Positions 5,052 to 14,478 of a DNA stretch of 64,000 nt are shown here, in pieces. The notes below the pieces were generated by a model, which did not search any database, was not told where the DNA came from, and saw nothing but the letters and a program-made list of their open reading frames with translations. Position numbers and translations under genes: made by a program. Each line of letters opens with the position of its first letter. Positions within the stretch are counted from its first letter, which is position 1. This DNA comes from Oxynema aestuarii AP17. Its GTDB lineage: Bacteria; Cyanobacteriota; Cyanobacteriia; Cyanobacteriales; Laspinemataceae. The stretch is taken from contig NZ_CP051167.1 of the NCBI RefSeq assembly GCF_012295525.1, forward strand, positions 1,674,001 through 1,738,000, in the 5' to 3' direction.

Positions 5052-8000
5052 ATGAGCTTATCTTCCTATCAAGTTGGCGGCAGCCTCAGCCTCAGCAATC
5101 CGACGTACATCGAACGGAAAGCAGACCGCGAACTCTACGAAGCCTTAAAACAGGGTGACTTTTGTTATGTCCTCAATAGCCGCCAGATGGGGAAATCCTC
5201 CCTGTTAGTGCGGACGCGCCACCGCCTGCAAGCGGAAGGATTCCAATGCACGACCTTGGACATGACCCGCATCGGTAGCGAAAATATCGAACCGTTGCAA
5301 TGGTACAAAGGCATTGTCACCGAACTGTGGCAGGGATTCGGACTGTTCGGTAAGTTTAACGTAAAAAATTGGTGGCGCGATGAAAATGAAATTTCTTTAT
5401 TGCAACGGTTAAGTAAGTTTATCGAAGAAATTTTACTCGAAAAATTACCCGATCGCCATTTAGTTATTTTGATCGATGAAATCGACAGTATTCTGACGCT
5501 TCCCTTTTCCATCGATGACTTTTTTGCACTCATTCGCTTTTGCTATAACCAACGAGCGATCCAACCGGAATATAAGCGAATTACCTTTGCAATTTTTGGC
5601 GTCGCCACCCCGTCGGATTTAATTCGCGATCGCCACCGGACGCCCTTTAATATCGGACGGGCGATCGAATTGCGCGGCTTCGACTTATCGGAAGTCGATC
5701 CCCTCATCCAGGGCTTTGAAGGTCGGGTTAAGAATCCGAGAGAGTTAATTCAAGAAATCTTAAAATGGACTGGGGGACAACCGTTTTTAACCCAAAAATT
5801 GTGTAAATTACTGCTCCAACTGCTCGCCGATCGCCCCAGGAATTTGAACTCGCAAAGCGGGCAGATGAAAATGTTTCCGGGAACCGAATCTTTTTGGGTC
5901 GAAGATGCCGTGCGATCGCGCATTATCGACAACTGGCAAGGTCAAGACGAACCCGAACATTTACGCACCATTCGCGATCGCCTCTTGCGAAATCCCAAAC
6001 GCGCCGGACGCTTACTCGGAATTTATCAGCAAATCTTACAAGGGGGCGAGGTTGTCAGCGATGACAGTTCGGAGCAAATCGAACTATTTCTGAGTGGATT
6101 AATTGAAAAAAAAGATAACTTACTCGTTATCAGAAATCGTATTTATCGAGAAGTCTTTTGTCTCGAATGGGTCGCACGCAAATTGCAAGATCTGCGCCCC
6201 TATTCTCAAGCTCTCGATGCGTGGGTCGAGTCCGGTCAAACCGACGAATCGCGACTGTTACGCGGACAAGCATTATTTGACGCCCAAACTTGGGCTCAAG
6301 GCAAAAGTTTGAGCGATATCGACTATCAGTTTTTAGCCAAAAGTCAGGACCTCGATCGCCGCGAAATGCAGCAAGTTTTGGACTTGGAACGGGGTAAGGC
6401 GATCGCCAAAGAAGCCAAATTACAACGGCGATTTCTCCGGGTAGTTACTGCGGCGCTCCTCGTTTCTATCGGGTTGGGACTCTCTACCTTCTGGCAATAT
6501 CGAACGGCGATCGCCCGTCAAAAACAAGCTAGTATTAGTGAAATTCAAGCGTTAATTTCTTCCTCTCAAGGTTTATTTGCTTCCGAGCAAAGATTAGACG
6601 CCTTAGTTCAAGCACTTAAAGCCGATTTCAGGAAAAAACAACTCCACTGGGAAGATCCCAAAGTCCAGCGCCAAATTGATTCTGTTTTGCGACAAGCCGT
6701 ATATGGCGCGATCGAATACAATCGGTTGAATCACACCAGTCCGGTGATGGACGCGAGCATTTCTCCCGACGGTCAATCGATTACTTCGGTCAATCGGGAA
6801 GGTCGCCTCAAACTGTGGAGAATTGACGGGGTTTTATCTAAAATTATCGATAAAACTTTAACCACAAAAACGGCAGTTGTTTTCAGTCCCGACGGTCAAA
6901 AAATCGCCGTTGGAAACAGCGAAGGATCGATCCAACTCTGGAGTGCTAACGGAGTGAAATTACGAGAGTTTACCGGACATGAAGCGACGATCGAATCCCT
7001 GCGTTTTAGTCCAGATGGCAAATATTTACTATCTGCAAGTCGCGATCGCACGGCGAAACTGTGGACGGTCCGAGGGGAATTAGTTCGCAGTTTTAACGGT
7101 CATGACAATGAAGTGTTAATCGCCGTTTTTCATCCCGACGGGCAATCGATCGCTACCGGAAGTCTCGACAGTACGGTGAAACTGTGGAAACGAGATGGAA
7201 CCTTAGTCAAAACATTTGCACAAATCAACGGTCCGGTGAGTGGAATTGCCTTCAGTCCCGACGGGAAGGCGATCGCGATCGGTACCTGGAACGATAAGAT
7301 TTTTGTCTATGAAGAAAACGCCACCCAAGCGACTGAATTACTCGGACATACCAATTCAATTCTAACGGTCACCTTCAGTCCCGACGGCGAAACGATCGCC
7401 TCCGGTGGAGATGACAACACCGTGCGTTTGTGGAGTCGCGAAGGGGTGTTAATCGATACCTTTGAAGGACATACTGCCCCCGTGGTCAAGGTCGAGTTTA
7501 CCCCCGACGGCCAACAATTACTCTCCGGCAGTCAAGATGGAACGATCCGATTTTGGCGCTTCACTCACCCGTTACTTACCGTCTTGAATAAGCATTCTAA
7601 GCTTCTCCTCGGAGTCGGTTTCAATGTCGCGACGGGAGAGATCGTGACCGGGAGTCTGGATAACTATCTGTACTTTTGGAATCGGGAAGGGAAGTTATTA
7701 CGAAAAACCAACGATCCACCTGGGGGATGGATGAGACTCCATCCTAAAACTGGGGATATTATGAATGTCAATTTTATCGAAAGCAAGATTAACTTGAGAA
7801 AAGCGGACGGTACCCCGATCTCTACCTTGGTCGGACACGAAGATTATATTTGGGGGATTGTTTTCTCTCCCAATGACGATCGCCTCGGTTCTTTTGAAAA
7901 TCTCAACCGTCGTATTATTTTGTGGAAGCGTGACGGTAGTATAGTTAAAAAGTGGATTGCCCATGACGATGTGATTGGCGGGATCGATTTGAGTTCCGAC

Positions 8001-8552
8001 CGTCGTCTCGCCTCTGGCGACTGGGGAGGCGTGGTCAAAATTTGGAATCGGGATGGGGAGTTATTGCAAAGTTTCCAGGCCCATTCCGATCGGATTATCC
8101 GGGTGACGTTTAGTCCGAATGGGGAAACTCTAGCCACGGCGTCCGCCGACGGAACGGTTAAATTATGGGACGTTCGGGGGAAAGTCGAACCCTCCCGACA
8201 TTTATTGAACACTTTAAAAGGTCACGTGTCTTGGGTGTACGACGTTCAGTTTAGTCCGGACGGTCAAAGGATCGCTACGGCGGGACGCGATCGCACGGTC
8301 AAAGTGTGGAATCGATCGGGAGAATTATTGGTTAGCCTCAGTCGCCATAGGAAATTGGTCTGGTTTGTGAACTTCAGTCCCGATGGGAAATTCGTGATTT
8401 CCGGAAGTCGCGATCGCCAGGCGATTGTTTGGAATGTGGACGAGGCGATCGATCGCGATCGCGTCCGATCTGCGGGTTGCGACTGGATCGGCGATTATTT
8501 AAAAACTAATCGGGACATCGAGGAAAGCGATCGGGGTTTGTGCGATCGGTGA
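5052..8552 (+). CDS. AAA-like ATPase with transmembrane segment and 14 WD40 repeats (paralog B)
   Basis: Also 1166 aa, a tandem duplicate of the preceding gene. The AAA part (1-385) is strongly conserved: [22 protein letters not shown], a Walker B VILIDEID, and the [20 protein letters not shown] segment, identical in both. A hydrophobic segment lies at about 459-485. WD40 units run from about 562 to 1129 and also number 14, but several are degenerate: unit 8 lacks the SPDG turn, unit 9 lacks the D and W positions, and unit 10 has an insertion. The repeat half has diverged far more than the ATPase half, consistent with a conserved motor and divergent ligand specificity (inference). The tail CDWIGDYL...DRGLCD matches paralog A. 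Function unknown. Confidence 0.85.
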   Translation: MSLSSYQVGGSLSLSNPTYIERKADRELYEALKQGDFCYVLNSRQMGKSSLLVRTRHRLQAEGFQCTTLDMTRIGSENIEPLQWYKGIVTELWQGFGLFGKFNVKNWWRDENEISLLQRLSKFIEEILLEKLPDRHLVILIDEIDSILTLPFSIDDFFALIRFCYNQRAIQPEYKRITFAIFGVATPSDLIRDRHRTPFNIGRAIELRGFDLSEVDPLIQGFEGRVKNPRELIQEILKWTGGQPFLTQKLCKLLLQLLADRPRNLNSQSGQMKMFPGTESFWVEDAVRSRIIDNWQGQDEPEHLRTIRDRLLRNPKRAGRLLGIYQQILQGGEVVSDDSSEQIELFLSGLIEKKDNLLVIRNRIYREVFCLEWVARKLQDLRPYSQALDAWVESGQTDESRLLRGQALFDAQTWAQGKSLSDIDYQFLAKSQDLDRREMQQVLDLERGKAIAKEAKLQRRFLRVVTAALLVSIGLGLSTFWQYRTAIARQKQASISEIQALISSSQGLFASEQRLDALVQALKADFRKKQLHWEDPKVQRQIDSVLRQAVYGAIEYNRLNHTSPVMDASISPDGQSITSVNREGRLKLWRIDGVLSKIIDKTLTTKTAVVFSPDGQKIAVGNSEGSIQLWSANGVKLREFTGHEATIESLRFSPDGKYLLSASRDRTAKLWTVRGELVRSFNGHDNEVLIAVFHPDGQSIATGSLDSTVKLWKRDGTLVKTFAQINGPVSGIAFSPDGKAIAIGTWNDKIFVYEENATQATELLGHTNSILTVTFSPDGETIASGGDDNTVRLWSREGVLIDTFEGHTAPVVKVEFTPDGQQLLSGSQDGTIRFWRFTHPLLTVLNKHSKLLLGVGFNVATGEIVTGSLDNYLYFWNREGKLLRKTNDPPGGWMRLHPKTGDIMNVNFIESKINLRKADGTPISTLVGHEDYIWGIVFSPNDDRLGSFENLNRRIILWKRDGSIVKKWIAHDDVIGGIDLSSDRRLASGDWGGVVKIWNRDGELLQSFQAHSDRIIRVTFSPNGETLATASADGTVKLWDVRGKVEPSRHLLNTLKGHVSWVYDVQFSPDGQRIATAGRDRTVKVWNRSGELLVSLSRHRKLVWFVNFSPDGKFVISGSRDRQAIVWNVDEAIDRDRVRSAGCDWIGDYLKTNRDIEESDRGLCDR

Positions 8553-8631
8553 GAACGGGGGGCGATTTTCCTGGGGAGACGCTTCGCGAACGCCGCGACC
8601 CCCTTGGAAACCCCAATCCGGCAATTAACCC

Positions 8632-8660
8632 TTGACAAGTCGGGAACTTTTTGCTAGGTT
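8632..8660 (+). promoter_or_regulatory. Sigma-70-type promoter for the DAHP synthase leader
   Basis: TTGACA at 8632-8637 is a perfect -35 box. After exactly 17 bp comes TAGGTT (8655-8660), a moderate -10. The predicted start near 8667 would produce an RNA with about 40 nt before the first leader-peptide ATG and about 355 nt before the DAHP synthase ATG. Confidence 0.65.
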
Positions 8661-8706
8661 CAACAATCATAGCCATCATTAATTCTCGAAATTTAACCTT
8701 AATTCG

Positions 8707-8763
8707 ATGCACGAACGCGCCGCCTATTTTTATTTTTGGTTTAGCCAGGTTCACCGGGAGTGA
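8707..8763 (+). CDS. Aromatic leader peptide 1 (18 aa) of the DAHP synthase attenuator
   Basis: ATG at 8707 opens an 18-codon frame ending with TGA at 8761: MHERAAYFYFWFSQVHRE. Six of seven consecutive codons (8725-8742) specify Tyr, Phe, Tyr, Phe, Trp, Phe. Such density of exactly the end-product amino acids directly before an antiterminator/terminator pair is the hallmark of ribosome-mediated attenuation, as in the trp and phe leaders of enteric bacteria. A ribosome stalled on these codons leaves 8748-8758 free to form the antiterminator, whereas one that reaches the TGA covers it. No clear Shine-Dalgarno is seen, which is common in cyanobacteria. The peptide probably has no function after synthesis. 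Confidence 0.8.
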   Translation: MHERAAYFYFWFSQVHRE

Positions 8764-8827
8764 ATCGAGTTTCGCTTGCTCGTTACCCGGTGAACCGCAG
8801 ACCAAAGGCTGCGGTTCTTTTGTTTTT
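8748..8827 (+). promoter_or_regulatory. Attenuator 1: antiterminator and terminator hairpins
   Basis: GGTTCACCGGG at 8748-8758 (inside the end of leader peptide 1) pairs perfectly over 11 bp with CCCGGTGAACC at 8786-8796, giving an antiterminator with a nested CGAG/CTCG stem. The competing terminator pairs GAACCGCAG (8792-8800) with CTGCGGTTC (8809-8817), 9 bp, followed by CTTTTGTTTTT to 8827. The two stems share 8792-8796, so they exclude each other. Confidence 0.8.
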
Positions 8828-8857
8828 AAGGTTCTATTCACGTTCTCGGCGATCGAC

Positions 8858-8923
8858 ATGACACGGATTGGCAACTCCTTTTTTAGCTTTTACTTTTTTT
8901 GGCTCAGAAGCGGTTCTGGGTAG
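8858..8923 (+). CDS. Aromatic leader peptide 2 (21 aa) of the DAHP synthase attenuator
   Basis: ATG at 8858 opens a 21-codon frame ending with TAG at 8921-8923. The core NSFFSFYFFWL contains five Phe, one Tyr and one Trp codon between 8879 and 8902. The last codons and the stop overlap the 5' arm of the second antiterminator (8907-8921), so a ribosome at the stop codon would mask it. Together with leader 1 this gives two independent aromatic-codon sensors in one transcript. There is no recognisable ribosome binding site in front of the ATG. Earlier upstream starts in the same frame run through the first terminator and are unlikely. Confidence 0.8.
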   Translation: MTRIGNSFFSFYFFWLRSGSG

Positions 8924-8984
8924 GTAATTGCTGCGTCAATCGATCGCCTCCACCCGGAACTGCTTCAACGGTTCCGGGTTTTTT
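8907..8984 (+). promoter_or_regulatory. Attenuator 2: antiterminator and terminator hairpins
   Basis: The terminator is a perfect 9-bp stem ACCCGGAAC (8952-8960)/GTTCCGGGT (8971-8979) with a 10-nt loop and six T (8979-8984). The alternative antiterminator pairs GAAGCGGTTCTGGGT (8907-8921) with ACCCGGAACTGCTTC (8952-8966): 15 bp including two G-U pairs, using the whole 5' arm of the terminator. It stands 37 nt before the DAHP synthase start codon. Confidence 0.8.
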
Positions 8985-9021
8985 GTCGTCTACGTTCACT
9001 CCAGATCTTGAGGAAAACCCC

Positions 9022-9873
9022 ATGTTAAACGCCAAACTCGCCACTCAAACCCACAATCCCTCGGTCATCCGCATCGGTGAAAGCGTCACCGTCGGCGGTG
9101 AAGACCTGCTCGTTATCGGCGGGCCTTGTACCGTCGAAAGTCTGGCGCAAATGGAGCAGGTCGCCCGCCATCTGTCCCCGAGTCCGGTGCAAATGTTGCG
9201 CGGTGGCGCCTTCAAACCCCGCACCTCCCCGTATTCCTTCCAAGGATTGGGAGATGCGGGGTTAACGATTTTGTCCGAGGTCAGCCAACGCTACAACATG
9301 CCTGTAGTGACCGAAGTGATGGCAGTGAGCCAAATTGAGGCGATCGCCGATCGCGCCGACATGCTGCAAGTCGGTAGCCGCAACATGCAAAACTTCGACC
9401 TCCTCAAGGCCCTCGGCGAAGTCAACAAACCCGTTTTACTCAAACGCGGACTCGCCGCCACCCTGGAAGAATTCGTCTTCGCCGCCGAATATATCCTCAG
9501 TTCCGGAAATCCGAACGTGGTCCTGTGCGAACGGGGGATCCGCAGTTTCGACCCCTACACCCGCAACGTCCTCGACCTCGGCGCCGTGGTCGCCCTCAAA
9601 CAAATCACCCATCTCCCGGTCATCGTCGATCCGTCTCACGCCAGTGGGAAACGGGAACTGGTGGCGGGTTTGGCGCGAGGGGCGATCGCCGCCGGGGCCG
9701 ACGGTTTGATCGTCGAATGTCACCCGGAACCGGAAAAATCCGTGTCCGATGCGAGACAAGCTCTTTCCCTAGAAGCAATGGTCGCCCTGGCGGAAAGCCT
9801 ACGCCCGATCGCCGCCGCCGTCGGTCGCCGCCTCCCGGAAGCGATTCCCGCCGAGGTGGCGATCGCCGCCTAA
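9022..9873 (+). CDS. aroF: 3-deoxy-7-phosphoheptulonate (DAHP) synthase, type I beta
   Basis: The product has 283 aa from the ATG at 9022, which follows a good ribosome site (GAGGAA at 9010-9015). Upstream in-frame starts would cross the second terminator and are rejected. The enzyme condenses phosphoenolpyruvate and erythrose 4-phosphate, the first step of the shikimate pathway. Family landmarks are GGPCTVES, RGGAFKPRTSPYSFQGLG, LQVGSRNMQNF, LLKRG, CERGIRSF, VDPSHASGKRELV and the C-terminal DGLIVECHPEPEKSVSDA, with the metal ligands Cys, His and Glu in these motifs. There is no N-terminal ferredoxin-like or chorismate mutase domain, so allosteric control in the protein may be absent or weak. 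That fits with control through the leader RNA upstream. Confidence 0.95.
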   Translation: MLNAKLATQTHNPSVIRIGESVTVGGEDLLVIGGPCTVESLAQMEQVARHLSPSPVQMLRGGAFKPRTSPYSFQGLGDAGLTILSEVSQRYNMPVVTEVMAVSQIEAIADRADMLQVGSRNMQNFDLLKALGEVNKPVLLKRGLAATLEEFVFAAEYILSSGNPNVVLCERGIRSFDPYTRNVLDLGAVVALKQITHLPVIVDPSHASGKRELVAGLARGAIAAGADGLIVECHPEPEKSVSDARQALSLEAMVALAESLRPIAAAVGRRLPEAIPAEVAIAA

Positions 9874-9938: not shown

Positions 9939-12332
9939 TTACAACGGAAACACCAGGGAACGCGATCGCCCGTCATCCTCGAAACTTTGCCGTCCGATTC
10001 CGACGACCTCGACGACCGCTTCCCGCGATGGCGGCGTCCAATGGCCCTGACGTTCGCCAATCTCGACGACAATCTCGCGATCGCCCTGGCGGACTCGATA
10101 AGTTGTGGTCGCCCAATCCCCCTCGCGATACCCAAAACTCTCGCCGTCATCTTCATAATGAATAAATGTCGTCGGTAAACCACTCTCTCCCGGGGGCCAA
10201 ACGTTCACCGTGAGGCGATCGCCCGCCCCCTCGCCGACAAACTGCCCGACCTGCGCTAAGGGAATCACCGCCCCCGCCCTCACGTATAACGGCATCCGTT
10301 CCAACGGCGCCTCGGCTAAAATCTGCGTCGGGCCGCGATAATGCTGTCCGGTCCACCAGTCGTACCAGACCCCAGCCGGGAGATAGACCGCCTGAGTGGA
10401 GACCCCCGGACGACAAACCGGGGCCGCCATCAGCCACGGACCGACCATCACGCGATCGGCGATCGTGTAAGTTTGCTCGTCATCGGGAAACTCGTACAGT
10501 AACGGACGTAAAATCGGCGTTCCGGCGGTGGTCGCTTCCCAAAATAACGTATAGAAATAAGGCAGCAACCGATAGCGCAGTTCGATAAATTCGCGACAGA
10601 TCTGCTCGACGCGATCGCCGAAACACCACGGTTCGTGCGATCGCGTCCCCAACGCCGAATGACCGCGCATCAACGGATAGAGCATCCCCACTTGCATCCA
10701 TCGGGCGAATAGTTCCGGCGTGGCGTTGCCGAAAAAACCGCCGATGTCGCAGCCGACAAACGGCACCCCGGATAAGCCCATATTGCACAACATCGGTAGG
10801 GACATTTCTAAATATTCCCAGCGCGATTGATTGTCTCCCATCCACACCGCCGACCAGCGCCCGATTCCCGCATATCCCGATCGCGTCAGCACGAACGATC
10901 GCGCTTCGGGACGGTGACGTTCCATCGCCTCGGAGGAACTGCGCGCCATCAAGTGACCGTAAAGGTTGTGAACTTCCGCGTGAGTCGCCCCTTCTTCCGG
11001 CGGACCTTGGGGCGCATCTTCGGGAAACCAGATTTTCGTCCCCGGGTCGCCAAACGGGCGATCGGCGATCGCGGGTTCGTTCATGTCGTTCCAAATTCCC
11101 GCAATTCCAATCTCTGTTAGCGGTTGGTGCAAGTCTCCCCACCACTGGCGCACCTCCGGACGCACGAAGTCCGGGAATACGGCTTTATCGGGCCAAACGT
11201 AGCCGTGAAAGAGCTTTCCGGAGCGATCGCGCACCAAGTAATCCGAGGCGATCGCGCCATCGAAGACCTCGTAATCGGCGTCGGGTTCGTATTTAATCCC
11301 CGGATCGACGATCGTCACCGTTTTAAAGCCCTCGGCCCTTAAATCTGCCACCAAGGCGGCGGGGTCGCTAAAGCGATGGGGATGCCAGGTAAACACCCGA
11401 TAACCGCGCATGTAGTCGATATCCAGATGGATGACATCGCACGGAATCCGGCGATCGCGGAATTCCCGGGCGATCGCGCGCACTTCGTCTTGAGACTCGT
11501 AACTCCAACGGGACTGATGATAGCCGATCGCCCATTTTGGCGGTAACGGCGGGCGTCCGGTCAACTGAGTATACGTCGCCACCACCGCCGACGGTTGCGA
11601 ACCGTAAATAATGTAGTAGTCCAACTCGCCGCCGTCGGTTTCCATCCGCCAGCAGTTCGGATCTGCCTCGCCGAGGTCGAAGCGACTCCAGTAAGTGGAA
11701 TTGAGAAAAATTCCGTAAGTTAACCCCGGACGCAACACCATCAGGAACGGGATCGCCTGATACATTTCGTCTGTGAGTAAGTCGTAATCGAGGGAATCGA
11801 CGGTCCAATTCGTCGCTACCGTACCGCGTTTTTCTAACAGTCCGGTCCGTTGTCCCAATCCGTAAAAGCACTCTTGCGCTTCGATCGCCTTCACCGCCGC
11901 CACCCGGCGATCGCGCCAATGCATCCCCGGGGCGAGGTCTCGGGCGAATTCGCGCCCTTGAGGATCGATACAGGCGAGCAAACCGCTCTCACGCCGTACC
12001 CGCACCTCCATGCACTCGGTGGCGATCGCGATCTCTTCGGGGGTTTCGCTCAGCTCGAACCCCGTCGGCGTCCAGCTTTCATCTTCTGCGGCGATCGCCC
12101 ACGACCGTCGCGGTTTCCACTGTCCGTCCGGACTGAGGCGTACCCGAACTAAGTTCGGGGCCAGGACGCCGACCCGGATTTTGGCCTCCCCGCAGTCAAA
12201 ATCGACGTGACGCCCGTGGGTATGGAGCGATCGCACCCCACCGAGGACGGAAACCGGGCGATCGTTGCGGGGTAATTGTCGGAAGTTTTCTAACATGACG
12301 GATTGGGCAGAGGTTAACGGGCATTTGCTCAT
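9939..12332 (-). CDS. Glycoside hydrolase family 31 alpha-glucosidase
   Basis: About 797 aa from the ATG at 12332, preceded by AAGGTGAG; a start at 12365 is also open. GH31 enzymes hydrolyse alpha-glucosidic bonds by a retaining mechanism. Visible family features are a beta-sandwich N-terminal domain, YHQSRWSYESQDEVR, HLDIDYMRGYRVFTW and the nucleophile region GIWNDMNEP near residue 412, where the Asp is the catalytic base-nucleophile. These are followed by FVLTRSGYAGIGRWSAVWMGDNQSRW and the GVPFVGCDIGGFFGN block with the acid/base Asp nearby. No signal peptide is seen, so it is probably cytosolic and may act on maltodextrins from glycogen. The exact substrate cannot be read from sequence. 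It stands alone and converges on aroF. Confidence 0.9.
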   Translation of the reverse strand: MSKCPLTSAQSVMLENFRQLPRNDRPVSVLGGVRSLHTHGRHVDFDCGEAKIRVGVLAPNLVRVRLSPDGQWKPRRSWAIAAEDESWTPTGFELSETPEEIAIATECMEVRVRRESGLLACIDPQGREFARDLAPGMHWRDRRVAAVKAIEAQECFYGLGQRTGLLEKRGTVATNWTVDSLDYDLLTDEMYQAIPFLMVLRPGLTYGIFLNSTYWSRFDLGEADPNCWRMETDGGELDYYIIYGSQPSAVVATYTQLTGRPPLPPKWAIGYHQSRWSYESQDEVRAIAREFRDRRIPCDVIHLDIDYMRGYRVFTWHPHRFSDPAALVADLRAEGFKTVTIVDPGIKYEPDADYEVFDGAIASDYLVRDRSGKLFHGYVWPDKAVFPDFVRPEVRQWWGDLHQPLTEIGIAGIWNDMNEPAIADRPFGDPGTKIWFPEDAPQGPPEEGATHAEVHNLYGHLMARSSSEAMERHRPEARSFVLTRSGYAGIGRWSAVWMGDNQSRWEYLEMSLPMLCNMGLSGVPFVGCDIGGFFGNATPELFARWMQVGMLYPLMRGHSALGTRSHEPWCFGDRVEQICREFIELRYRLLPYFYTLFWEATTAGTPILRPLLYEFPDDEQTYTIADRVMVGPWLMAAPVCRPGVSTQAVYLPAGVWYDWWTGQHYRGPTQILAEAPLERMPLYVRAGAVIPLAQVGQFVGEGAGDRLTVNVWPPGESGLPTTFIHYEDDGESFGYREGDWATTTYRVRQGDREIVVEIGERQGHWTPPSREAVVEVVGIGRQSFEDDGRSRSLVFPL

Positions 12333-12530
12333 TATCTCACCTTCGCTGCTGCCAACAATACGCATTTCGATAGAGGCTCGATCCCTTCCATCGGTAGAGG
12401 CGATCGCCAGAACACTCCCTTACACTAAACTCAGGCTGTTCCCAATCCGAACAGTCTTTTAAATGCTTGTTAATTGTTCGTTTATTTAAGCGAATTTATC
12501 ACATCTTATTCTGTGGAGGAACTCAATTTT

Positions 12531-13355
12531 ATGCGCTCTTTTATTCTCGATCTCCAGAAGCAACTCAACACCCCCGTTCGTCTGCGCTTGGGGGCGATCG
12601 CTCTCGCCACTACTACCCTATTTCTCGGCGCTTGCAATCGCAGCGAACCGACGAACGTTTCCACTCAAGGTAGGGAACCGACAACGTCCGAACAGGTTGC
12701 CCAAAATACCGAACAGTTAGTCGGCGAAACGGTCACCGTTCGCGGTGCATTCGAGCAGCAAATCGATCGCATTTCTTTCTTAATCGACGAAGGAATGACC
12801 GCCGGAGGCGAGCCGATTCTGGTGATGAATATTTCCGGTCAACCGTTCTCGCTACCCCCCGAGGCAGAGGATCTCGACGTTCGCGTAACGGGTGAAATTC
12901 GCAATTTCAAGCGCATGGATTTTGAAAATGAATTCGGCTTGGATCTGCTTCCCGGAACTTACGACACTTACGAAGCGAAACCCACCATTCTCGCCAATTC
13001 GATCGAGTTAATTGCGCAACCGGGGGACGTTTCCGAAAATCCCGCAAGCTTCTACAATCAACCCCTCAATATTGAAGGGGAAGTCGAACAGATTTTGAGT
13101 CCCAATACGTTTACTTTAGACGAGGAAGAATTAGCCGGAGCCAGCGATCTGCTCGTGGTCAGCGTCCTTCCCGATCGACCCTATACCGAAGACCAGCAAG
13201 TGATGGTTAAAGGGGAATTGCGTAATTTCATCGTCAGCGAATTAGAGCAAGAATACGATTTAACTTGGGATTTACAGGTCAAAGAGCAGTTAGAAGCGGA
13301 ATATTCTAATAAACCCGTGTTTATCGCCACGGAAGTGATGCCCGCAGTCCAATAA
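12531..13355 (+). CDS. Putative lipoprotein with two OB-fold-like repeats
   Basis: 274 aa from the ATG at 12531, chosen for the GGAGGA at 12515-12520 and because it begins the signal peptide. A basic/hydrophobic N-terminus ends in a lipobox-like LFLGAC (Cys near residue 32), so it is probably lipid-anchored. The mature part contains two related units of about 100 aa, each with V.R(G)...I..N.F.L.....G...LLV and ending in a region rich in acidic residues (LEQEYDLTWDLQVKEQLEAEYSNKPV follows in the second, split here by its conserved positions). It is homologous along its length to the next gene. The repeats look like small beta-barrels of OB type (inference). I do not know a function. GC and HIP1 content match neighbours. 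Confidence 0.6.
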   Translation: MRSFILDLQKQLNTPVRLRLGAIALATTTLFLGACNRSEPTNVSTQGREPTTSEQVAQNTEQLVGETVTVRGAFEQQIDRISFLIDEGMTAGGEPILVMNISGQPFSLPPEAEDLDVRVTGEIRNFKRMDFENEFGLDLLPGTYDTYEAKPTILANSIELIAQPGDVSENPASFYNQPLNIEGEVEQILSPNTFTLDEEELAGASDLLVVSVLPDRPYTEDQQVMVKGELRNFIVSELEQEYDLTWDLQVKEQLEAEYSNKPVFIATEVMPAVQ

Positions 13356-13439: not shown

Positions 13440-13662
13440 CGCGCAAAGTTCGTCACGCCACTTTGTTTGAAATAGCTTCTACAATACTCCCCAAAATACT
13501 CCCCAAAATACTCAATTAGAAAGAGGCGCAAACGGTTCTAAAGGGGGAGGCGATCGCCCCGCCGCGATCGTTATGCTAAAGGTAGCACAGAAAAAATAAC
13601 GAATAGCAATAAGATCTAGCCGATAACACACAACTAACACAAAATCATTGGGAGAAGACTGC

Positions 13663-14478
13663 ATGACTTTTACAACAGCTCAGAACACGACCTTAACTCG
13701 CTCGATCTGGCGCGGTGGGGCGATTTCCCTCGTCCTGACGGGATTGCTGCTGCCCTTCGCCGCCCCCCTGCAGGCGGGCGAACTCAAGCGCTCCGATCGC
13801 AGTACCATCGAGAACATCGAAGAACGCAGCGATCGCTACCTCGGTCAAGAAGTCACCGTGCGCGGCGAAGCGGCTAACCTCGTCGAACCGAATACATTTA
13901 AGCTCACTTCAGATAACTTTTTAGACGGCGAAGAAATCCTCGTCATCAACAACTCGGGGGAACCCTTCGTCCTCCCCTTCGACGATGGCGTCGCCGTTCA
14001 GGTGACCGGAGAAGTCCGCGAATTAGAAGTCGCCCAACTCGAAAGAGATTTCGATATCGAGTTTTGGGAATCGGATTTATACCTAGAATATCAGCAACAA
14101 CCCGCGATCGTCGCGGACTCCCTCGCCTTAGCTCCCGACCCGGGCGACATCGAAGACTATCCCAATCGCTTCTACAATATGAATTTAGCCGTGGAAGGGG
14201 AAGTCGAAGAAATTCTCGCTCCCGGCGTCTTCAAACTCGAAGAACACAACTTCCTCGATCTCGGGGGCAGCGATTTGCTCGTCATCAACCCGACCATGGG
14301 AGATTTCGTCAGAAATGGTGAAGATCTCGTCGTCACGGGGCAACTGCGTTCCTTCGATCTCTACGAACTCCAACGCGATTACAATCTCGATTGGGATTTA
14401 GGAGTCCAACAGCAAATCGAAGCTGAATTTACCAACAAACCCGTGTTAATCGTCGATGAAATCTACTCCACCGAGTAA
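13663..14478 (+). CDS. Exported protein with two OB-fold-like repeats, paralog of the preceding gene
   Basis: 271 aa from the ATG at 13663, placed 9 bp after GGGAGAAG; a TTG at 13648 is less likely. An N-terminal signal peptide (SLVLTGLLLPFAAPLQAGE) has an Ala-x-Ala-like cleavage site instead of the lipobox of its paralog, so it is probably soluble in the periplasm. Two internal repeats of about 100 aa follow, each starting near D/ERY-LGQEVTVRGE or NMNLAVEGEVEEI. Each has F.L....F...E/SDLLVIN, then V.VTG.(V/L)R.(F/L)....LxRDxxxxxD, and ends K/QPxxIVDxxxL/S. It is very acidic. Function unknown; domain shape is inferred. Gene tandem plus internal duplication gives four related domains in 2 kb. 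Confidence 0.65.
   Translation: MTFTTAQNTTLTRSIWRGGAISLVLTGLLLPFAAPLQAGELKRSDRSTIENIEERSDRYLGQEVTVRGEAANLVEPNTFKLTSDNFLDGEEILVINNSGEPFVLPFDDGVAVQVTGEVRELEVAQLERDFDIEFWESDLYLEYQQQPAIVADSLALAPDPGDIEDYPNRFYNMNLAVEGEVEEILAPGVFKLEEHNFLDLGGSDLLVINPTMGDFVRNGEDLVVTGQLRSFDLYELQRDYNLDWDLGVQQQIEAEFTNKPVLIVDEIYSTE

Follow-up and report, generated by a model that had tools for sequence, protein, structure and literature searches.

Why is the aroF gene of the cyanobacterium Oxynema aestuarii AP17 preceded by two short open reading frames rich in aromatic codons, each followed by a terminator-like hairpin? The window analyzed here is the whole stretch of 64,000 nucleotides, taken from a genome that consists of a single contig of 6,357,750 bp, and all features of the system lie on its forward strand. 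The favored answer, to which we assign a probability of about 0.87, is that two complete attenuators stand in series behind one promoter and before aroF in this cyanobacterium. The aroF gene (9022–9873) encodes a DAHP synthase of 283 amino acids that holds the catalytic domain only (PF00793, E = 1.9e-75; TIGR01361, E = 6e-106; no PF18152). A large ORF with an AAA_35 domain and WD40 repeats (5052–8552) lies 5' of the system. On the other side, a glycoside hydrolase family 31 gene on the minus strand (9939–12365) is convergent with aroF, and two neighboring ORFs (12474–13355 and 13648–14478) are alike in sequence by eye and gave no Pfam match.

A sigma-70 promoter was predicted at 8632–8660, with −35 TTGACA at 8632–8637 and −10 TAGGTT at 8655–8660. 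Leader 1 (MHERAAYFYFWFSQVHRE) occupies 8707–8763. The 5' arm of antiterminator 1 (strand 2, 8748–8758) ends two bases 5' of the leader-1 TGA, and its partner, placed from base-pair counts, is the 3' arm at 8786–8796 (strand 3). Terminator 1 (T1, 8792–8827) consists of the hairpin 8792–8800/8809–8817 and the U-rich tail 8818–8827. No Shine-Dalgarno sequence was evident by eye 5' of either leader in the window.

Leader 2 (MTRIGNSFFSFYFFWLRSGSG) runs from the ATG at 8858 to the TAG at 8921–8923 and contains five Phe, one Tyr, and one Trp. The first-pass annotation of this DNA had given the same composition and placed leader 2, its antiterminator arm, and terminator 2 (T2) correctly. T2 (8952–8984) has an 11-bp hairpin (8952–8962/8969–8979) and the U-tract 8980–8984. 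Antiterminator 2 pairs 8907–8921 (strand 2) with 8952–8966 (strand 3, from base-pair counts) over 15 bp, including two G-U pairs, and in the window it occupies the entire 5' arm of T2 plus four loop bases. The proposal that it takes up the whole terminator arm was thus borne out; the length of 15 bp belongs to the window, since the outer 5 bp are paired in a minority of genomes and the core conserved across genomes is 9–10 bp (5' strand 8912/8913–8921). The arm had also been said to cover the last five leader codons and the first base of the stop codon: it does include the T of TAG, together with 14 of the 15 bases of those codons.

The position of this arm was retained across relatives. In 90 of 91 loci, the first base of the stop codon was also the last base of the arm; a pattern match in L003 was a chance one and was excluded by eye, as the stop codon there is shifted 12 nt upstream with the strand-2 letters retained. 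The final leader-2 codon was GGG in 40 of 43 genomes, though Gly has four codons, a preference that points to a constraint at the RNA level. A further hairpin formed by the end of the leader, the 1:2 or protector hairpin (8902–8921; 8902–8909/8914–8921), was present in the minimum free energy (MFE) folds.

Conservation was analyzed in orthologues taken at 70–80% gene identity, with 80 named loci kept of 322 relatives and 39 related genomes. Many Nostoc species among these relatives carry the system. The resulting 97 orthologous loci, including the window, were reduced to 93 by excluding four with less than 250 nt upstream. By script, an ORF similar to leader 1 was found in 89 of the 93 upstream regions and one similar to leader 2 in 91, and the same numbers of regions had a hairpin followed by a U-tract downstream of the respective leader (leader 1, 89; leader 2, 91). 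Two regions (L012 and L094) were scored as lacking leader 2, yet each shows a variant of it.

The promoter was confined to one place. Of 89 loci, 88 had the pattern TTGAC-N(16-18)-TAnnnT 5' of leader 1, compared with 0.64 expected by shuffling, and each match had a spacer of 17 or 18 and ended 34–66 nt before leader 1. None of the 89 loci had a match between leaders 1 and 2 (0.42 expected) or in the stretch from leader 2 to aroF, so that a second promoter between the gates was rejected. With a looser pattern, the count was 27 of 41 for the sequence before leader 1 and 1 of 41 for the stretch from T1 to leader 2; a general promoter scan with a stricter −10 rule did not list the promoter at 8632–8660. 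With one promoter before leader 1 and none between, the two gates are probably in series on one transcript.

Folding of the window was compared with 200 dinucleotide shuffles per region. No shuffle (0/200) folded as well as the leader 2 region (z = −3.9), antiterminator 2 alone (z = −4.95), T2 alone (z = −4.3), or the leader 1 region (z = −4.85), and T1 alone was less striking (z = −3.2, 1/200). The unconstrained MFE structure of the leader-2 module (−57.4 kcal/mol) combined the 1:2 hairpin and T2 with the S helix, a pairing between the leader-2 start region and the spacer that is described below; an untranslated leader 2 is therefore predicted to terminate. The unconstrained leader-1 module folded into antiterminator 1, and an untranslated leader 1 is predicted to read through.

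Covariation was measured in two alignments. Alignment A1 held 44 of 46 dereplicated leader-2 regions (without L024 and L044, and with L003 shortened by 15 nt), and A2 held 41 of 44 leader-1 regions (without L029, L059, and L060). Antiterminator 1 was paired in 92.5% of cells across 41 genomes, with changes on both sides in 8 of 11 pairs, and on four of five measures 0 of 500 shuffles did as well. Antiterminator 2 was paired in 77.4% of cells over its 15 pairs across 44 genomes, 8 of them with both-side changes, and its covariation score and percentage paired were each reached by 0 of 500 shuffles. For T2, 87.8% of cells were paired and 4 of 11 pairs had both-side changes (44 genomes). Thus, both antiterminators and T2 covary. 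T1 was paired in 99.5% of cells with both-side changes at one pair, and because it is nearly invariant it barely tests covariation. Shifting the partner by 1–3 columns lowered the paired fraction of both antiterminators, T1, and T2. The 1:2 hairpin, 8 bp in the window, was paired in 80.4% of cells across 44 genomes; its percentage paired was reached by 132 of 500 shuffles and its covariation score by 52 of 500.

A variant form of T2, CCCGGAACC...GGAACCGGG with an AA/AA internal loop, was observed in L019, L026, L038, L057, L061, L073, and L096 (A1 columns 109–139), where the pairing of strand 2 with strand 3 is intact by eye. The loop should tilt the balance to the antiterminator.

A structure-free scan was also performed, in which 14 segments (91 pairs) were tested with their own partner against partners from other genomes, in 42 of 44 genomes (L006 and L098 lack leader 1) and with spacer 1 long enough in only 24. 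The first rank went to start region 2 with spacer 2 (p = 5e-8), the sole pair that passed correction for 91 tests. Ranks 2 to 5 were antiterminator 1 (p = 0.0019), T2 (0.0035), antiterminator 2 (0.0059), and T1 (0.015), and close behind T1 came a pair that had not been predicted, the antiterminator-1 3' arm with the terminator-2 3' arm (p = 0.019). Under stricter dereplication, antiterminator 1 stayed significant down to n = 19 (p = 0.014) and the signals of T1, T2, and antiterminator 2 faded, with T1 missing p = 0.05 at thresholds below 93% similarity and antiterminator 2 at thresholds below 80%.

The top-ranked pair is the S helix, predicted to form between the start region of leader 2 and the spacer; it is new and had no place in the first-pass account. 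Its start-region strand lies at 8848–8866 around the leader-2 start codon and its spacer strand at 8931–8948, paired as 8848–8856/8940–8948, 8859–8862/8935–8938, and 8864–8866/8931–8933, of which the first two also appear in the MFE fold. The duplex energy was −15.5 kcal/mol with the own partner and −11.6 kcal/mol with swapped partners (p = 1e-9, n = 44). The S helix outlasted every other helix under stricter dereplication, with p = 4.5e-4 among 21 genomes less than 75% alike and p = 0.0034 among 12 less than 70% alike. In 39 of 44 genomes, the helix took in two or three bases of the leader-2 start codon, and genome by genome 24 of 44 beat 95% of simple spacer shuffles. In the window, the 9-bp core joins two GATCG stretches that we take to resemble the HIP1 repeat, so coincidence may contribute there.

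The S helix was further analyzed in other loci. Of 35 taken, three (L136, L137, and L147) were dropped when the script found no leader 2 with a terminator motif, despite a leader being visible in L136 and L147, and the starts of L131, L134, L140, and L143 are possibly misassigned. The helix gave p = 0.027 in the 32 loci, five of which are 98–100% the same as discovery regions, and p = 0.12 without those five (n = 27). It was not seen in the 21 genomes least similar to the discovery set (p = 0.42). The idea of the S helix as a universal part was weakened by this result: it is robust in nearer relatives and belongs to part of the group.

The spacer sits between strands 2 and 3, so the S helix and the antiterminator cross each other, whereas the S helix and the terminator can coexist. 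When the start region was removed from the folding model, gate 2 was closed by default in 35 of 44 genomes, compared with 43 of 44 when it was present. These models allow a tentative reading of gate 2 as a translation-gated lock, in which the start region-spacer pairing would block the antiterminator, and RNA polymerase would get past only where a ribosome had been loaded and had come to a halt in the aromatic codons. With no lock of its own, gate 1 would then fail open, and gate 2 would fail closed. We consider this reading rather doubtful, the more so as the S helix was not seen in the more distant genomes. If it is true, the system would be an attenuator with two steps, able to distinguish a shortage of amino acids from a loss of translation.

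The effect of ribosome position was modeled by equilibrium folding with an assumed footprint of 30 nt and with only the RNA downstream of the ribosome allowed to fold. In the window, a ribosome at codons −15 to −9 of leader 2, counted from the stop, left strand 3 paired upstream with P of 0.45–0.96, and these codons hold four of the five Phe and the Tyr. Gate 2 terminated with the ribosome at −8 (the last Phe), at −7 (Trp), and at the stop (P at least 0.98), and also with the ribosome before −15 and without a ribosome. The lone Trp codon thus lies at a position of predicted termination, and shortage of Trp should hardly be sensed by this leader. In gate 1 of the window, the ribosome-free RNA was open (0.99), a ribosome within the Tyr/Phe run gave a near balance (0.37–0.57), and the gate was closed from −8 on.

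Across genomes, the terminator probability of gate 2 (n = 44) was 0.92 without a ribosome and 0.95 with one at the stop, and it was 0.63–0.77 when the ribosome stalled at −15 to −7. For gate 1 (n = 42), it was 0.29 without a ribosome, 0.35–0.38 with a stall at −12 to −9, and 0.69 with the ribosome at the stop; at that last position, just 25 of 42 genomes exceeded 0.5. When pairing across the ribosome was allowed, gate 2 of the window was predicted to terminate in nearly every state. Equilibrium folding backs the switch clearly for the window and weakly across genomes.

The codons of the leaders were compared by position, with L003 left out for leader 2 and L024 and L071 for leader 1. All 43 genomes had an aromatic residue at position −14 of leader 2 (Trp in 30, Phe in 7, Tyr in 6), and position −9 was Tyr in 37, Phe in 5, and Trp in 1 (n = 43). 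Position −10 of leader 1 was Tyr in 33, Phe in 5, and Trp in 1 (n = 39). Because Phe, Tyr, and Trp interchange at fixed positions, selection appears to keep aromatic codons, which favors tRNA sensing over an arrest peptide. Judged from these alignments, the retention of aromatic codons looks as expected for sensing of charged tRNA at the common first step of the pathway. Amino-acid composition differs between leaders 1 and 2, and both carry aromatic codons; their sensitivities may differ, as the first-pass annotation suggested. Leader 2 had been described as mainly Phe; this holds for the present genome, and in the system as a whole Phe exceeded Tyr plus Trp in 12 of 44 dereplicated genomes. 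All three aromatic residues were present in 91 of 91 leader-2 and 87 of 89 leader-1 peptides, so the Phe bias of the window leader 2 is local.

The same features bear on the other explanations of this locus. The leader peptides might bind free aromatic amino acids in the exit tunnel and arrest the ribosome, in the manner of TnaC, a peptide that stalls the ribosome in this way, so that tRNA shortage would not be what is read. The peptide cores are indeed well conserved (WFYGFYFWPR in leader 2, YFYFWF in leader 1). The identity of the residues varies at the leader-2 positions −14 and −9 as given above, however, the Pro and Arg after the leader-2 core are replaced in 14 and 12 of 43 genomes, and an arrest at the stop codon would hide the arm; we regard nascent-peptide arrest as very unlikely. 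Slightly less credit still is given to direct binding of a metabolite, a tRNA, or a protein by the leader RNA (as in a riboswitch, a T-box, or a TRAP-like system), with the ORFs incidental. Alternative structures that covary would suit such an RNA, but the leader frames are retained (leader 2 in 91 and leader 1 in 89 of the 93 regions), their aromatic codons keep fixed positions, and the window gave no Rfam match at the gathering threshold. A known RNA family was rejected on the same search, which ran all 4227 models at curated thresholds with 0 window matches; at E up to 10, positions 8600–9025 gave only four matches, to unrelated families and far below the thresholds.

The terminated leader RNAs or the leader peptides might instead act in trans, with attenuation in cis secondary. 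Termination at the two gates is predicted to yield short RNAs of about 160 and 320 nt, and trans action of a leader peptide (peTrpL in Sinorhizobium) is reported for S. meliloti in the available part of PMC7298713. The covarying antiterminators speak for a role in cis, and trans action as the main function seems more improbable again than direct binding. The least probable explanation, to which we give almost no weight, is ordinary sequence, that is, two terminators of the upstream gene accompanied by chance ORFs. Intergenic hairpins with U-tracts are common, and a T2-like one (L113) stands by two convergent genes in the same genome, but chance leaves the conservation of both ORFs, the promoter 5' of leader 1, and the covariation of the antiterminators without an account, and a paralogous gene lacks such a tandem. 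Two leader-peptide attenuators in series remain the favored reading: each module appears to combine the testable defining features of such a system, namely an ORF with codons for products of the pathway, a terminator, an exclusive antiterminator, and a biosynthetic target gene.

In the proposed mechanism, RNA polymerase would start near 8667 and reach gate 1 and then gate 2. At each gate, a ribosome would translate a leader rich in Phe, Tyr, and Trp codons. With charged aromatic tRNA plentiful, the ribosome would arrive at the stop codon and cover the 5' arm of the antiterminator, and the terminator would form. A ribosome stalled in the aromatic run would leave the arm free to pair with the terminator 5' arm, and transcription would continue. 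Passage of both gates would allow aroF to be made; otherwise it would not be. In this genome and its nearer relatives, the S helix and the 1:2 hairpin would make termination the default of gate 2 when leader 2 is untranslated; no start region-spacer pairing of the S-helix kind was found for gate 1. The first-pass annotation had proposed that a stall frees the arm and a ribosome at the stop hides it, which fits the anatomy and the comparative data; these default-setting elements, as modeled, had been missed. The computations show the parts, their conservation and covariation, the single promoter, and the specificity for aroF, whereas translation of the leaders, stalling, the termination efficiency, the direction of the response, and the role of the lock are what we infer.

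The attenuated aroF was compared with 14 paralogues, namely the 49%-identical one of the same genome and 13 of relatives. Within 600 nt before the gene start, 13 of the 14 had no ORF with five aromatics in 10 residues; the remaining region (L101) held one such ORF and not a tandem. In the attenuated set, this mark was present in 88 of 89 leaders 1 and 91 of 91 leaders 2. The paralogues without such leaders carried the ferredoxin-like domain PF18152 in 6 of 6 tested, and the attenuated enzymes in 0 of 6. The best-matching chains in the DAHP synthase comparison were 3pg8 and 1rzm, which we take to be the Thermotoga enzyme. In Thermotoga, the ferredoxin-like domain mediates inhibition by Tyr and Phe. 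In the enzymes tested, the domain is found only on the leaderless paralogue, so control of the transcript may stand in for allostery. This suggests a division of labor: no leader of this kind precedes the gene for the DAHP synthase that carries the ferredoxin-like domain, whereas two precede the gene for the enzyme that lacks it.

The enteric trp, his, phe, ilv, and thr attenuators, as we understand them, are alike in having an ORF with codons for the product, an exclusive antiterminator and terminator, and an arm that overlaps the end of the ORF. The aroF system differs from them in phylum, in the absence of an Rfam match, in its two attenuators in series, in its DAHP synthase target, and in its leaders, each of which usually combines codons for Phe, Tyr, and Trp; a further difference, in gate 2 of the nearer relatives, is the start region-spacer pairing. 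The multivalent attenuators of ilvGMEDA and thrABC, again as we understand them, are similar in that one leader holds codons for several products of a branched pathway, whereas they are single, proteobacterial, and serve other pathways.

The available part of PMC3641672 describes the Salmonella mgtCBR leader, which is like the aroF system in having two leader ORFs, each tied to alternative RNA structures, one of them sensing a charged tRNA (Pro). According to the same part of PMC3641672, the signals read by mgtM and mgtP are different ones, ATP and proline; the two aroF leaders both carry codons for one class of amino acids. Each aroF gate has its own intrinsic terminator; in that text, the mgtCBR leader is set against the metE leader, which has two intrinsic terminator sites (PMC3641672).

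An excerpt of a 2010 statement held that leader-peptide systems were not known beyond Proteobacteria and Actinobacteria, and the available part of a 2016 article (PMC4833913) noted no reliable data on attenuation in cyanobacteria. The excerpts of PMC4787780 and PMC10875765 held nothing on such a system. Searches of the open-access literature, with subscription journals mostly outside their scope, yielded no report of this aroF system and no well-supported example of such a switch in Cyanobacteriota. If the reading is true, the coupling of translation and intrinsic termination in cyanobacteria would be tight enough to support sensing of amino acids. To our knowledge, cyanobacteria are a phylum without Rho. 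In Synechococcus elongatus, intrinsic termination accounts for a minority of transcript ends, according to the available part of PMC13289151. For the engineering of aromatic products in cyanobacteria, the attenuators would be a practical target.

We searched 291 genomes of the class with two covariance models, R1 for the leader-2 module and R2 for the leader-1 module; searches of more than 40 genomes used stricter filters, by which weak matches are lost. R1 matched 106 genomes and R2 matched 108, and the AroF protein at E ≤ 1e-90 matched 112. Both modules were upstream of 95 of the 112 AroF-like genes, R2 only of 9, R1 only of 3, and neither of 5; R1 was thus upstream of 98. At least one leader module was present at 107 of 107 AroF genes that were at least 68% identical, and the five AroF-like genes with neither module were 55–58% identical. 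Among the 108 R2 matches, 104 shared a contig with aroF, and three off aroF contigs (G161, G290, and G143) lay where the contig ends at most 0.75 kb downstream. The leader modules are specific for the attenuated aroF.

Eight of the nine R2-only regions were analyzed by script. Four hold a diverged leader 2 overlooked by the model, for example MQISITNWYYGFFYTTGSGLW. The other four (L153, L154, L155, and L156, family f38) have a single-gate version with leader 1 and T1, and neither leader 2 nor a second terminator was found by the script in these four regions. The ninth region (G094), outside the eight scripted, is also of family f38. The f38 genomes with leader 1 and T1 only indicate that the modules are separable, and gate-1-only genomes are natural comparisons.

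The remaining R2 match, in G150 (L170, C48:71000–74500), is a leader 1 immediately followed by what is left of a truncated and decayed aroF. The locus lacks leader 2 and the 3' half of T1, and the genome has no aroF match at E ≤ 1e-90.

A wider regulon within the same genome as the window was rejected after searches with both leader models. The leader-1 model matched one site at E ≤ 1. The leader-2 model gave nine matches at E ≤ 10: its own site (E = 2e-19), a second match over model positions 53–126 (E = 8e-5), and seven further ones at E = 0.06–9.7. The second match is the terminator L113 (G000:C1:3295773–3295841), a T2-like terminator adjoining the two convergent genes, and a terminator of this type is a possible kind of source for the second gate.
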